Shown here: one piece after another, positions 60,171 through 64,000 of the stretch
How the letters are laid out: each line of letters opens with the position of its first letter
Position numbering within the stretch: the stretch's first letter is position 1
NCBI RefSeq assembly: GCF_024706985.1
Contig: NZ_JAMCCX010000014.1
Location: 1 to 64,000 of the forward strand
Direction: 5' to 3'
Length of the DNA stretch: 64,000 nt
Origin: Alicyclobacillus sp. SP_1
GTDB taxonomy: Bacteria > Bacillota > Bacilli > Alicyclobacillales > Alicyclobacillaceae
Translations under genes and position numbers: made by a program
Notes under the pieces: model-generated
The model's input: only the letters and a program-made list of their open reading frames with translations
Databases searched by the model: none
What the model was told of the DNA's origin: nothing

Positions 60171-60207
60171 AAGGAATTCCTCCTTTCACAGCCGCGTTCG
60201 TGCCAGT

Positions 60208-60417
60208 TCAGCCGACTGACAGAGGACCGCCGTAGTCACGCGCCGTAGCATACCACAGTACGGCATCGCATTGCAACTTTCCCATTTTAGAGCTCGCCAC
60301 CATGCGACCAACAAGTCCTAACGCTGACGAAGGCGCCACCTGAAAATAACTCAGTGTGACGCCCAAAGCATATGAGACTATCGTTCCTAGGCAGACACCT
60401 TGCGAGACATCCGTCAA
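60208..60417 (-). CDS. Doubtful 69-residue ORF with one hydrophobic segment
   Basis: Starts at TTG 60417, overlapping the previous ORF by four bases, with no good ribosome site. It encodes a hydrophobic stretch (VCLGTIVSYALGVTLSYFQV) and then a polar tail, and it contains the rplS promoter in its 3' half. I do not recognise it. The four-base overlap favours a real second gene of the riboswitch transcript; the poor start and embedded promoter argue against it. Confidence 0.3.
   Translation of the reverse strand: MTDVSQGVCLGTIVSYALGVTLSYFQVAPSSALGLVGRMVASSKMGKLQCDAVLWYATARDYGGPLSVG
60247..60276 (-). promoter_or_regulatory. Sigma-A-type promoter of rplS
   Basis: On the minus strand TTGCAA (60271-60276), an 18-base spacer ending TGTGG and TATGCT (60247-60252), giving a leader of about 70 bases before rplS. 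Confidence 0.6.
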
Positions 60418-60665
60418 TGAGATTTGGGAGCGTCAGTTGGCTGTTTCAAGGAAGGAACATCCTCTTGCGAAGACATGGAGTCGGCACGAGACGAGGGAAG
60501 TAACTTCTGCAAACTGTACATGATTTCTTGGTCTCGTTCCCACTGTGGCAACTCAGCTTGCATTTTCAATCCAATCATCTCCTCGGAGGCAAGTTTGTGC
60601 CTACCGCGGATTCCATGAAGTTTTCTGTGGACGTACATGCTCGCCACATAGGCCTCATTAAGCAT
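60414..60665 (-). CDS. Unknown 83-residue protein downstream of the c-di-AMP riboswitch
   Basis: ATG 60665 gives 83 residues; a stop codon (TGA) is in frame three codons upstream. The ATG lacks a ribosome site, and GTG 60647 (77 residues), five bases after a TGAGG, may be the true start. The protein is polar, with a charged helical middle (LASEEMIGLKMQAELPQWER then DQEIMYSLQKLL) and a Ser/Pro/Asp tail (DVPSLKQPTDAPKSH). No membrane helix or signal peptide. I do not recognise a family. It is the first ORF after the riboswitch, so it is the likeliest controlled gene. Confidence 0.5.
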   Translation of the reverse strand: MLNEAYVASMYVHRKLHGIRGRHKLASEEMIGLKMQAELPQWERDQEIMYSLQKLLPSSRADSMSSQEDVPSLKQPTDAPKSH

Positions 60666-60696
60666 GATAGCGCGTCACACGGGTAACACCACCTAC

Positions 60697-60808
60697 AACG
60701 CTTACGGAGTTAGCTGACGGGTTTGGGAGCAGGCTTCCCTACGCTACTTGCGCGATTCACCCCAAAAGATTGGTTTCTCCGCTTCTCATGGAATTCAGCG
60801 ATAGAACA
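60697..60808 (-). ncRNA. Cyclic di-AMP (ydaO/yuaA) riboswitch
   Basis: On the minus strand the aptamer landmarks of the ydaO family occur in order: CGCTGAATTCC (5' side, 60800-60790), AACCAATCTTTTGGGGTGAATC (around 60775-60754, split here as ACCAATC and GGGGTGAATC), GTAGGG, then CCCGTCAGCTAACTCCGTAA and GCG (about 60722-60699). CGCT and AGCG close the P1 stem. Consensus elements GGGTGAATC and CCGTCAGCTAAC are diagnostic. ydaO riboswitches sense c-di-AMP and usually switch off cell-wall hydrolase or potassium-uptake genes. A TATACT -10 lies just upstream (60814-60819). I see no classic terminator after it. Confidence 0.9.
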
Positions 60809-60844
60809 TCCTCAGTATACATCATTTCCAGTATGGATGCCACA

Positions 60845-60897
60845 CTTTTTCTCAAACAACGGGTGGCAGGAATGAACATAGCCACTCCTGCCACCCG
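60845..60897 (-). terminator. Intrinsic terminator of the lipoprotein operon
   Basis: CGGGTGGCAGGA (60860-60871) and TCCTGCCACCCG (60886-60897) form a perfect 12-bp stem with a 14-base loop; on the minus strand it is followed by TTGTTTGAGAAAAAG, a mediocre U-tract. It ends the ligase-membrane-lipoprotein transcript just before the riboswitch promoter. Confidence 0.7.
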
Positions 60898-60957: not shown

Positions 60958-61728
60958 TCAATCCTTCATTTGCTTAACGAGTGAAGCGGGGACTGTAACA
61001 TCCGCATACTTTTTGTTCATATTGAATAGCACCGTGGTCGAAGTCAATTCAATCGGCCCAATGTTTGGCAAGGAACCAACCGATGTCGTTTGGACCTCCC
61101 GCAATTCATCATTTCGCTTTCCAATCATCAAAGTCATCAACACTGGGGAACTCGACGAAAACACTTCGCCTCCGTCCCACTCCGCTAATTGTTCCACCGC
61201 TGCGGCAGGGACTTTTACCGCATAGACCGTGCAGTACTCGTCGACAATGTACTGTGTTGGTTCTAAGTAGACCGGCGCACCTGTCTTGGCTGCACCTTCA
61301 AGAATTTGTAGATAAGTCGGAAAGACATCTGGGTTTGACAGCGGCGTGGCCACAGACCAATGACCGTTGATGAAGGAAAATGCCGACTTCCCTTGTTGAA
61401 AGAAGTCAATGTTAAAGTCCCCTTCATGAACGCTCATCGACACCTTGTCCGGCTTTTGAATCGAACCATAGGTGGCGTAATAAGGATGCAAAGAGTTGTC
61501 CACAACCTCTACCTTTGACTTGATTTGATACTTCTTCAACTGTGTGCCTTTTTGCACTGACGCAAGAATGGCCGACCAGCCATTTGGAGCAATTTTTTGA
61601 AACGAGACAGGGGTCATCCCCGCCAACGGCTGTTGAATACTTGGCGAACACCCCACGAGGAAGGTGCAACCAAGCAGCGCGATCCCCCATGCGGAAGCGC
61701 GTTTCCATACTTTACGATGACTGGACAC
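60958..61728 (-). CDS. Lipoprotein, possible LolA/LprG-like carrier fold
   Basis: About 256 residues from GTG 61728 with GGAGG seven bases before. Basic N terminus, hydrophobic core and lipobox (AWGIALLGCTFLVGC) give a type II signal peptide with Cys at about residue 28. The mature part is beta-rich with paired strands (KYQIKSKVEVVDNSLHPYYA, KVSMSVHEGDFNIDFFQQGK) like DUF6612/LolA-type lipoproteins, which is only a suggestion. It overlaps the stop of the membrane-protein gene by 17 bases and ends the operon. It probably works outside the membrane with that partner. Confidence 0.8.
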   Translation of the reverse strand: MSSHRKVWKRASAWGIALLGCTFLVGCSPSIQQPLAGMTPVSFQKIAPNGWSAILASVQKGTQLKKYQIKSKVEVVDNSLHPYYATYGSIQKPDKVSMSVHEGDFNIDFFQQGKSAFSFINGHWSVATPLSNPDVFPTYLQILEGAAKTGAPVYLEPTQYIVDEYCTVYAVKVPAAAVEQLAEWDGGEVFSSSSPVLMTLMIGKRNDELREVQTTSVGSLPNIGPIELTSTTVLFNMNKKYADVTVPASLVKQMKD

Positions 61729-63364
61729 GCGACGACCTCCTCTCCCGAATGCGCAGCCCAAAACCTACCAGGCAAATCAAAACGAACGCAACCGCCGTCG
61801 CAGGTAGAACAGGCAAATAAGAACGCCGGAGAATTAGATATTCACCGGATCCGTAAATCGAGACGGCAAGGTCTTCTCGACCGCCCACCCATTGAATCGG
61901 CTGCACATTGACAACGTTGGTTTCGTAAACACGCCAATTCCGGTACAGTTGACCCTGCCGATACGTATAGGATGTAAAGTATCGCGTTGGAACATCCCGA
62001 AGGGCACTTGGGTCGTTCGTGATGATTTCCGGCGGGTCACTGGGCTTCGACTGCAAGACGGCTTCAAAACGCAGCGAGTCATTCGGAGCGGTATACACAA
62101 GATGGAATTGACCATCCTTTTGGACCGTCAAAATATACGCTGGCGTCGCATTGACAAAAATGGCATCCCGTCCACCCTGACGCAATGGACCCGTGACAAT
62201 ATTATGTGGCAAGCCGCGAGTCAGCGTCGCATGATACGTGCCGACCACTTGTTGTGAATTCAAGTCAACCACTTGGAGAATATCTGCACCCTCCACCAAT
62301 ACTTGATGCGCTCCGCGGCTGGTGAAGGAACCTTCACTAAGAACAATCTGCCCTTTCACAGGCACGTGTATCGGGGCCCCATGCCACTCGCCTTCCAAGA
62401 CGTTATGATGTATTTCCAATGCGGGCAAAACCATAGATGAACCAGCAGTTGTGACCGCTTCCTGCCACTCGGACATATCGGTATCCCATGCCTGCTGGGA
62501 CAGCGCAAGAAAATTCCCCGGATAACTGACTGGCTCGAGACCTAAACTCGTCGCACTCTCAGCATCTAGCGTGGGACTCAAATAGGTAATGACGTGATTG
62601 TCAACCACTTTCCAATGCGAGATGGCAAATGGAAAAGTCGATGAAATGAGATCCCATGGCTGTATCTTCCCCATATCTCTGGGAGGTAATGGACGAACTT
62701 CTGTGTGTCCGCCGACATGTCGAATCTGTACCAATTCATACTCATGGTCCGCTGACTGCAACAAATTGTAGAGGGAATTTTTTGAGTGAGTTGATTCGCT
62801 GGCCAATTCCTTCAATTGTGCTTTGGTGGGAACGGCGAGACTCAACGTCACCAAGCTCTGCCCGTTCTTACCATTGATGACCGCCCAGGGTAGCGCCGGG
62901 ATATCGGCGGGAATCAGACTCATGCGTCCCTCTTTAGCAATGGTGAAGTGCGTCAAAAACGGCCATTCGGAAACAGGGAGCCAAATCGTGGCGACGAGAA
63001 TGCCGAGCGTGCTGACCAGAATGTTTCGCCAGCCAGCTTTGGTAATGAAGAGCGCCAGAAAGAACAAACCCAAAAGCATGATCACGCTGTAAATAATGCG
63101 AGAATCGGTCGGGTAAAACGCGACACTCGACAGCCCTTGTCCTAATAACAGAGCAAAGACCGTAAACGTGATCCACTTTTTTCGAGCATAAGCAGGAATG
63201 CTCGTCAGCCACAACAAAATGATGAGCAGAACAGCAATGACCCCAAGCAACGCCAAATCCTTAACCAGTGGGCCGATAACCCACATGTTAAACCCATTGA
63301 CAAAGAGAGCCCACAACAGGTATACCAACCACATCCAGCGTCGACTAGTCTTTGACGGATTCAT
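61712..63364 (-). CDS. Large membrane protein with extracytoplasmic beta domain, unknown function
   Basis: About 550 residues from ATG 63364 with AAAGGGGGG seven bases before. About five membrane helices in the first 160 residues (WMWLVYLLWALFVNGFNMWV; LLGVIAVLLIILLWLTSIPA; IIYSVIMLLGLFFLALFITK), then about 350 exported residues rich in beta strands and repeated Val-Asp-Gly patterns (VLVEGADILQVVDLNSQQVV, GGRDAIFVNATPAYILTVQK) that suggest a beta-propeller, and a last helix near the C terminus (VLPATAVAFVLICLVGFGLR) before a basic tail. No family recognised. Overlaps the ligase by 20 bases and the lipoprotein by 17, so all three are coupled. Confidence 0.85.
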   Translation of the reverse strand: MNPSKTSRRWMWLVYLLWALFVNGFNMWVIGPLVKDLALLGVIAVLLIILLWLTSIPAYARKKWITFTVFALLLGQGLSSVAFYPTDSRIIYSVIMLLGLFFLALFITKAGWRNILVSTLGILVATIWLPVSEWPFLTHFTIAKEGRMSLIPADIPALPWAVINGKNGQSLVTLSLAVPTKAQLKELASESTHSKNSLYNLLQSADHEYELVQIRHVGGHTEVRPLPPRDMGKIQPWDLISSTFPFAISHWKVVDNHVITYLSPTLDAESATSLGLEPVSYPGNFLALSQQAWDTDMSEWQEAVTTAGSSMVLPALEIHHNVLEGEWHGAPIHVPVKGQIVLSEGSFTSRGAHQVLVEGADILQVVDLNSQQVVGTYHATLTRGLPHNIVTGPLRQGGRDAIFVNATPAYILTVQKDGQFHLVYTAPNDSLRFEAVLQSKPSDPPEIITNDPSALRDVPTRYFTSYTYRQGQLYRNWRVYETNVVNVQPIQWVGGREDLAVSIYGSGEYLILRRSYLPVLPATAVAFVLICLVGFGLRIRERRSSRVQSS

Positions 63365-64000
63365 CCTGTTGCCCCCCTTTGCCAAACTTTCGCGTGCCCC
63401 AAATCAGAGCCAAGATAACCACTGCGTAATACAAGGCGACCATTGGATTATACTCCCATACATTTTCTACAAAATCGTGCATGGCTACGGCCAAAACCCC
63501 AGCAAACAAACCGATGGCCAAGAATCTGTCCCTTCCCAATGCTTTCCGAACAACTTTGCGATAGATTTCAAACAACAGACTGACTTGAATTCCAGCGAAT
63601 AGAACCAAGCCAACCAAGCCCGATTCGCCAAGGGTTTTGGCGTAATAGTTGTCCGAATAAATGCCATGACGATAGAAAGCCGCAACCTGTCCTCCGTATC
63701 TTCCCAACCCGGCTCCAAAAAGCGGATTTGCCGCCATTTTGTCAAACGCCGTCAACCACCGAGAAATGCGCCCCGCCTCCGCAGACTTCAAAAGATATAC
63801 TGGCGAGAACAAGTCTGCGACACGATGGTGAATGGGCGGCAAGAAAAAACCAACTACCGCAACCACGAGTACAATTAAGAACAATCTGCGGTCAAATAAC
63901 AGTGCCGAGATGACCATCGCCAACGCGAAAGCGAGCCATGCTCCTCGCGTAAACGTGAACAAAAGCGTAGCGAGACACACCACTACCCCAAATCCATAGA
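63345..64000 (-). CDS. O-antigen ligase family membrane protein (Wzy_C), 5' part outside the window
   Basis: The C-terminal 217 or so residues of a polytopic membrane protein that continues beyond 64000. The Wzy_C pattern is visible: LFTFTRGAWLAFALAMVI, an exported loop with NPLFGAGLGRYGGQVAAFYR, and closing helices (LVGLVLFAGIQVSLLFEIYR, LAIGLFAGVLAVAMHDFVEN). In monoderm Firmicutes such proteins polymerise or transfer surface glycans. It ends in a short Gln/Asp tail that overlaps the next start. First gene seen of the three-gene operon. Confidence 0.88.
   Translation of the reverse strand, partial: YGFGVVVCLATLLFTFTRGAWLAFALAMVISALLFDRRLFLIVLVVAVVGFFLPPIHHRVADLFSPVYLLKSAEAGRISRWLTAFDKMAANPLFGAGLGRYGGQVAAFYRHGIYSDNYYAKTLGESGLVGLVLFAGIQVSLLFEIYRKVVRKALGRDRFLAIGLFAGVLAVAMHDFVENVWEYNPMVALYYAVVILALIWGTRKFGKGGQQDESVKD

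Follow-up and report, generated by a model that had tools for sequence, protein, structure and literature searches.

A c-di-AMP riboswitch in front of a conserved 51-residue protein in Alicyclobacillaceae

INTRODUCTION

Riboswitches for c-di-AMP mark genes that the cell ties to this second messenger, and their usual targets are wall hydrolases. Translational riboswitches that work with sequester and anti-sequester helices are known from several classes. Regulated proteins of very small size are exemplified by MntS in the MntR regulon of E. coli. The kdp c-di-AMP riboswitch uses a terminator and works as a transcriptional OFF switch (PMC6488665).

An earlier note on DNA from Alicyclobacillus sp. 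SP_1 (RefSeq assembly GCF_024706985.1, contig NZ_JAMCCX010000014.1, positions 1 to 64,000; this whole stretch of 64,000 nucleotides is called the window below) placed a c-di-AMP riboswitch in front of orphan small open reading frames (ORFs) followed by rplS. We compared this locus with other genomes; where genomes, loci and genera have to be told apart, they are given as G, L and g numbers, respectively. As a whole, the locus is best explained as a single-gene unit consisting of a promoter, an aptamer, a translational platform and a conserved 51-residue protein, and we consider this explanation probable. As far as tools and literature show, the riboswitch class is known, whereas the target family, the conserved unit and the platform are undescribed. 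In the literature covered (titles and abstract openings), we found no c-di-AMP riboswitch before a free-standing small gene; the 51-residue protein is likewise unreported there, and an earlier report is possible.

RESULTS

The aptamer and its upstream surroundings

The elements discussed below all lie on the minus strand and are listed in the order of reading:

60860..60897, minus: terminator-like hairpin ending the preceding (lipoprotein) transcription unit; 16 pairs, then TTGTTTGA
60814..60843, minus: putative promoter of the riboswitch mRNA, GTGGCA-18-TATACT, based on its place and a -10-like box in relatives (by eye)
60684..60810, minus: c-di-AMP (ydaO/yuaA) riboswitch aptamer, RF00379; 95.8 bits, model positions 1-134 of 134
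60785..60800, minus: proposed switch helix, 5' strand CGCUGAAUUCCAUGAG, inside the aptamer (5' strands of P1 and P2)
60610..60620, minus: proposed switch helix, 3' strand CUUCAUGGAAU
60580..60610, minus: hairpin taking up part of the Shine-Dalgarno sequence; -16.1 kcal/mol, z -2.9
60579..60584, minus: Shine-Dalgarno sequence GAGGAG
60414..60569, minus: small gene for 51 residues, starting with TTG and given with its stop codon: MKMQAELPQWERDQEIMYSLQKLLPSSRADSMSSQEDVPSLKQPTDAPKSH
60171..60276, minus: neighbour, not part of the unit: rplS promoter (60247-60276) and a stretch resembling the L19 leader (by eye)

The c-di-AMP riboswitch read on the minus strand was borne out by a covariance search. 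In an Rfam scan of the whole window, the RF00379 match covers the full model far above its gathering cut-off of 38 bits (E 2.3e-21 for the window) and is the sole match reaching the cut-off of its family. Judged from its sequence, the element is a member of the known c-di-AMP riboswitch class, and ligand binding is predicted. The genome (3.4 Mb, 105 contigs) holds three RF00379 matches, and the remaining two precede wall hydrolases, one with LysM and Hydrolase_2 and the other with LysM and NlpC/P60 domains. A different leader type was also considered, since UGGAACCCGCG resembles UGGNACCGCG, a motif of T-box leaders. This reading was dropped for want of a T-box match: RF00379 is the only family found at gathering level across 40 loci, and a permissive Rfam scan up to E 10 found no T-box in L069, L070 and L104.

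A -10 box (TATACT, 60814-60819) lies just upstream of the aptamer, as had been noted, and a terminator-like hairpin does separate the riboswitch from the preceding genes. The promoter scan found one site versus 0.7 expected from shuffles, a count not above shuffles; the putative promoter therefore rests on its place and on relatives, which share a -10-like box at the corresponding place (by eye), and not on the scan. In 21 of 34 loci, the palindrome TTACGTAA or a close variant lies between the -10 box and the aptamer, at or near the presumed transcription start, where it might be an operator or a 5' stem of the RNA; it is absent from the window. The preceding genes of the window (60958-63385, minus) encode a lipoprotein of 267 residues and a 557-residue membrane protein, with no Pfam match at the cut-off. 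By eye, relatives of the lipoprotein precede the riboswitch unit or rplS in the majority of the loci inspected; this holds for both families of the order, G016 being a case without one.

Borders of the small gene

The earlier note had assigned 83 (or 77) residues to the first frame behind the aptamer. Compared with the sister species, however, the first 32 codons of this frame are without clear protein conservation, and they cover the RNA hairpin and the ribosome-binding site. The upstream part is better described as expression platform; when it is read as protein, the two sister species give a poor alignment. The 83/77-residue frame, for which no Pfam or NCBIfam match was found, was rejected because clear conservation is missing before the TTG at 60569. 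Among the 34 loci with the small ORF, 32, including the window, have a start codon exactly five codons before an invariant E-L, with a Shine-Dalgarno-like stretch before it; in G061 and G009 the distance is four codons. The start codon of the window is TTG at 60567-60569, and therefore the product comprises 51 residues (60414-60569, minus). On these comparative grounds, the 83-residue frame begins too early and the conserved product is the 51-residue protein read from TTG.

Conservation and selection

In the sister species (G001, the only other genome of this genus), lipoprotein, riboswitch, small ORF and rplS follow one another in identical order, and the two small ORFs have AELPQWERD in common. 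With an E limit of 0.1, a two-sequence profile gave matches in 29 of the 59 genomes that represent the order. The aptamer landmark GTCAGC lies 106-164 bases ahead of the core in 28 of the 29 loci kept; G061 has a one-base variant of the landmark, and its aptamer is nevertheless recognised by Rfam. Two other matches were discarded, namely a second one in G029 (L067) of the profile search, which is without the core, and one in G044 of the first protein search (E 0.0035), which has internal stops and was regarded as chance. Alignment of 28 proteins (excluding the near-duplicate G035) revealed eight invariant columns and a variable tail, the core being M-x(3)-P-E-L-P-x(3)-R-D-x-E-I-x(3)-L.

The small frame is also conserved by the measure of dN/dS. 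For the core, the pooled value is 0.09 (19 codons, 36 within-genus pairs, 28 of the 34 genomes; G035, G061, G015, G016, G006 and G009 were not grouped), with synonymous change saturated in two single-pair groups, that of the window included. Values of single groups reach 0.21 (g4) and 0.19 (g8). For the two alternative frames of this DNA, the values are 0.86 and 2.64, so that the comparison points to strong purifying selection on the amino acids.

A second alignment (A4), which combines 16 sequences of the 51-residue type with four of a sister type described below, yielded a profile that matches 36 of the 41 Alicyclobacillaceae genomes at 1e-5 or better and none of the 18 genomes of the other family of the order. 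When 398 genomes sampled evenly from the class were searched at 0.02, 28 of them matched, and each of these is from Alicyclobacillaceae. In the phylum sample, there are two matches among 398, one being the own genome and the other lying inside a 620-residue frame, which we take as chance. Within the range of these samples, it is thus a protein of Alicyclobacillaceae. As a separate observation, G003 carries a solo copy of the core, ELPELSDFVRDSEIAAQL (L118, about 1486-1536, minus; E 0.0014), followed by another small ORF; a short-motif scan found no aptamer landmark in this stretch.

The riboswitch and the small gene occur together

The small ORF of this unit was found in 34 of the 41 family genomes: the 29 found by profile search, G006, G008, G011 and G022, and finally G009, whose diverged copy was read at the rplS locus. 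Rfam places an aptamer directly upstream of the ORF in 32 of these 34 loci, and in this comparison the riboswitch precedes a gene that it could control. We also tallied 39 rplS loci (those of G013 and G033 excluded): 31 have both aptamer and small ORF, two the ORF alone and six neither. The six loci without the ORF (G002, G007, G010, G012, G017 and G028) are all without an aptamer. Taken from sequence comparison, the small ORF and the aptamer are a unit that recurs in the family Alicyclobacillaceae and in most cases immediately precedes rplS.

Of the two readings offered in the earlier note, the one of a new small effector in the c-di-AMP network is supported as far as comparison goes, since the ORF and the riboswitch are conserved jointly in the family. 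The other, a riboswitch that has lost its target and is now followed by frames due to chance, would agree with the finding that no frame has a significant family match. Against it stand the 51-residue frame, which is conserved, under selection and syntenic, and the lack of a single aptamer without the ORF among the 39 rplS loci, while two genomes have lost the aptamer and kept the ORF. We find a lost target scarcely credible. The opposite pattern, in which the riboswitch is conserved and the ORF is not, was looked for, and the ORF turned out to be conserved alongside.

In the two genomes just mentioned (G011 and G022; loci L069 and L070), a natural deletion has removed the core of the aptamer while the promoter, the aptamer 5' strand, the platform hairpin and the ORF are kept; even a permissive scan found no RF00379 at these loci. 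A further variant is G033 (L050), where the unit is intact and rplS does not adjoin; instead, a gene on the other strand follows, which by eye we name citrate-synthase-like. The unit and rplS are therefore separable.

Transcription unit and relation to rplS

That rplS follows the small ORF in the window was confirmed, and it lies downstream, at once or beyond another gene, in 33 of the 34 loci. In at least five genera (g2, g3, g7, g8 and g11), an HlyD-like gene (assigned by eye, one confirmed with Pfam) stands between rplS and the small ORF or its place. The 69-residue ORF that the earlier note had tentatively added after the small gene does not hold up as a gene. It covers the putative rplS promoter (TTGCAA-18-TATGCT) and the L19-leader-like stretch, and it was rejected as it has no significant Pfam or NCBIfam match; on the coding strand of the sister species, no frame of at least 60 residues is listed at its place. 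The rplS promoter is not among the sites listed by the consensus promoter scan, and a promoter-like site before rplS is seen by eye in the sister species as well. As for the leader itself, a search of the window with an E limit of 10 gave no RF00556 match (cut-off 36 bits), and matches before rplS below the cut-off occur in L070 (34.2 bits), L069 (22.2) and L104 (22.2).

Given its place, the small ORF might be a leader peptide, in which case riboswitch-controlled translation would tune transcription into rplS or the HlyD-like gene. The recurrent position upstream of rplS speaks for such a role. However, in 28 of the 34 loci the ORF is followed by a terminator-like hairpin and a T-rich tail (none was found in the window, G064, G030, G025, G015 and G011), and rplS has a promoter-like site and a leader-like stretch of its own. 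The low dN/dS of the core, the intact unit of G033 away from rplS and the presence of the sister type in other operons also argue against a leader peptide, which we regard as very improbable. Most likely, the riboswitch and the small ORF form a single-gene transcription unit.

Expression platform and proposed switch helix

Between 60684 and 60569, the scan of the window found no terminator-like site, so that the terminator type of arrangement seen in kdp was not encountered. Instead, in all 34 loci the stretch from GG[A/G]A to the start codon folds into a hairpin (z -0.8 to -5.5). Of the best Shine-Dalgarno match, five bases long, between one and five bases are taken up by the 3' arm of this hairpin; for g5, the largest genus, it is only one base, at the edge of the Shine-Dalgarno sequence. 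Just 5' of the hairpin, GG[A/G]A[C/U] is present in 34 of 34 loci and pairs with UUCC in the aptamer 5' strand. More fully, the strand CGCUGA[G/A]UUCC... can pair with GGAA[C/U]..., running into the 5' arm of the hairpin. In the window, the helix pairs AUUCCAUGA with UCAUGGAAU. Both strands differ in a matched way in the sister species, where AUUCCUAA lies opposite UUAGGAAU (partly by eye). Since P1, P2 and the hairpin 5' arm all contribute bases to this switch helix, it would exclude both P1/P2 of the aptamer and the hairpin.

In the alignment of 32 loci, 88.3% of the cells of an eight-pair switch helix are standard pairs versus 9-58% when the strands are slid, a control that favours any structure found in these sequences; four of 500 shuffles reach the same percentage. 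G001 is misplaced by one column in this alignment (by eye), which works against the pairing count. Changes on both sides were found for two pairs, 15-294 (A-U 12, G-C 6, U-G 1) and 10-299 (G-C 30, A-U 1), a result reached by 35 of 500 shuffles. Further pair types are not above shuffles in the switch helix (499 of 500 reach that number), and pairing fails in 13 of the 32 sequences at 15-294 and in 14 of 32 at 9-300. Helix extension with the partner of the same species exceeds that with swapped partners (mean 1.7 vs 1.0; a sum as high as the real one arises in 9 of 5000 permutations), with the qualification that both the shuffles of the covariation test and the partner swaps ignore relatedness. 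At the loci of G011 and G022, where the aptamer is lost, GUUCCA and UGGAAC are still present opposite one another, 19-20 bases apart, and the hairpin is kept. Together with some covariation, the comparison suggests a switch helix between the aptamer 5' strand and GGAA[C/U]. The alternative stem proposed earlier, between the GCGT at the end of P1 and the ACGC behind it, is not supported: ACGC occurs within 45 nt after P1 in only 2 of 32 loci. The alternative pairing that is conserved has other partners.

Direction of regulation

In the best fold of the window leader, the switch helix is present, at -81.1 kcal/mol versus -71.6 with P1 forced (a cost of 9.5); for a slightly longer stretch, its ensemble probability is 0.39. 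For the window, the cost of opening the ribosome-binding site is 5.4 kcal/mol when the full leader is folded and 8.5 kcal/mol when the aptamer is kept closed. Over the 32 aptamer-bearing leaders, the picture is mixed. The switch helix has a probability above 0.5 in 16 of them. Opening of the ribosome-binding site is cheaper in the full leader by at least 1 kcal/mol in 17, the window included, dearer in seven, the sister species G001 included, and within 1 in eight. By comparison with the closed aptamer, the Shine-Dalgarno sequence of the full leader is freer in seven and less free in 16. The OFF direction preferred here therefore rests in part on the known OFF behaviour of the class.

With the opposite direction, binding of c-di-AMP would expose the Shine-Dalgarno sequence, or the hairpin would present it, and the protein would be made at high c-di-AMP. 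Such an ON switch fits the 16 of 32 unbound leaders in which the Shine-Dalgarno sequence is less free and the hairpin of genus g5, which ends at the Shine-Dalgarno sequence. On the other hand, the opening energies lean the other way in the 17 leaders given above, and the known case is a transcriptional OFF switch (PMC6488665). We deem an ON switch, or some other logic of the platform, unlikely. A translational OFF switch, provided that the platform is translational, appears rather more plausible than its opposite, with folding energies supporting this direction only partly.

The protein and its sister type

The structure model of the 51-residue protein, based on an alignment of two sequences only, has one confident helix at residues 9-23 (mean pLDDT 68.5). 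The amphipathicity of this helix is weak and uneven between genera, and we therefore make no claim of membrane binding; the charge of the tail also differs between genera. Among the 28 members, no NCBIfam family was matched up to E 1, and two Pfam families were matched by one member each (best E 0.045), neither significantly. Profile matches among solved structures are mostly designed helical repeats, and five of six have no stretch passing on its own, so that they tell little about the protein. Our best guess is that the protein would act as a one-helix adaptor for a partner protein.

A sister type with the core P-E-L-x(2)-L-L-R-D-x-x-I stands behind a protein of about 180 residues in riboswitch operons of G011, G022, G028 and G017. 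The occurrence of the same core in a second riboswitch setting suggests that this core is part of the c-di-AMP response and is not tied to rplS. In G013, a sister small protein stands alone behind an aptamer, with the Shine-Dalgarno sequence directly after P1. Together, the sister-type loci of these genomes are L119, L011, L013, L020 and L022. As to the larger protein, 16 of 30 riboswitch loci of relatives (L007-L036) precede one unnamed family of 160-190 residues by eye (L007, L009-L013, L018, L020, L025-L031 and L033; 11 aligned), which would be another protein of the c-di-AMP regulon. For this family, there was no match at the curated cut-off in Pfam (two members scanned) or NCBIfam (five scanned), and no solved relative was found at E 0.1.

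DISCUSSION

Based on these observations, a regulatory scheme can be proposed. When c-di-AMP is absent or low, the switch helix would form as an anti-sequester, leaving the ribosome-binding site freer, and the protein would be made. With c-di-AMP bound, the aptamer would hold its 5' strand, the hairpin would close on the Shine-Dalgarno sequence and synthesis would fall. The low c-di-AMP state may correspond to low potassium or osmotic downshift. In this state the protein, predicted to consist of one short helix and a disordered tail, might act by binding a partner protein.

It is tempting to go one step further and to suppose that Alicyclobacillaceae have dedicated c-di-AMP-regulated miniature proteins, built on one helix of the form P-E-L-x(4)-R-D-x-E/A-I-x(3)-L, which occur in two forms and share a partner. 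One form would be the free-standing gene under its own translational riboswitch, and the second would be the one behind the protein of about 180 residues in other riboswitch operons. We are evenly divided as to whether this broader idea is right. If it is, the miniature proteins, acting on their shared partner, would give c-di-AMP one more output in addition to potassium transport and wall hydrolysis. In any case, a selected, unnamed mini-protein directly behind a c-di-AMP riboswitch, conserved in the family, points to a regulator or adaptor overlooked by annotation, and the 51-residue protein is a good candidate for an additional component of the signalling network of potassium and the cell wall. 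The mRNA of the small gene is also a ready test system, as the aptamer, the switch helix and the Shine-Dalgarno hairpin can be mutated singly and two natural aptamer deletions are at hand.

How does the locus compare with known systems? Its likeness to MntS lies in a very small protein placed under a physiological sensor; the sensor in the window, however, would be an RNA for a second messenger. The kdp riboswitch has an intrinsic terminator between aptamer and gene (PMC6488665), whereas none was found at that place in the window. Compared with the c-di-AMP (ydaO/yuaA) riboswitches of RF00379 at large, the aptamer of the window is identical in class, with its match to the full model. It differs in its target, a 51-residue protein without a known family, and in its platform, which looks translational and whose helix would use the aptamer's own 5' strand. 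Finally, with the sequester/anti-sequester riboswitches of several classes the locus has in common a hairpin at the Shine-Dalgarno sequence together with a proposed alternative helix of the aptamer that would exclude this hairpin.
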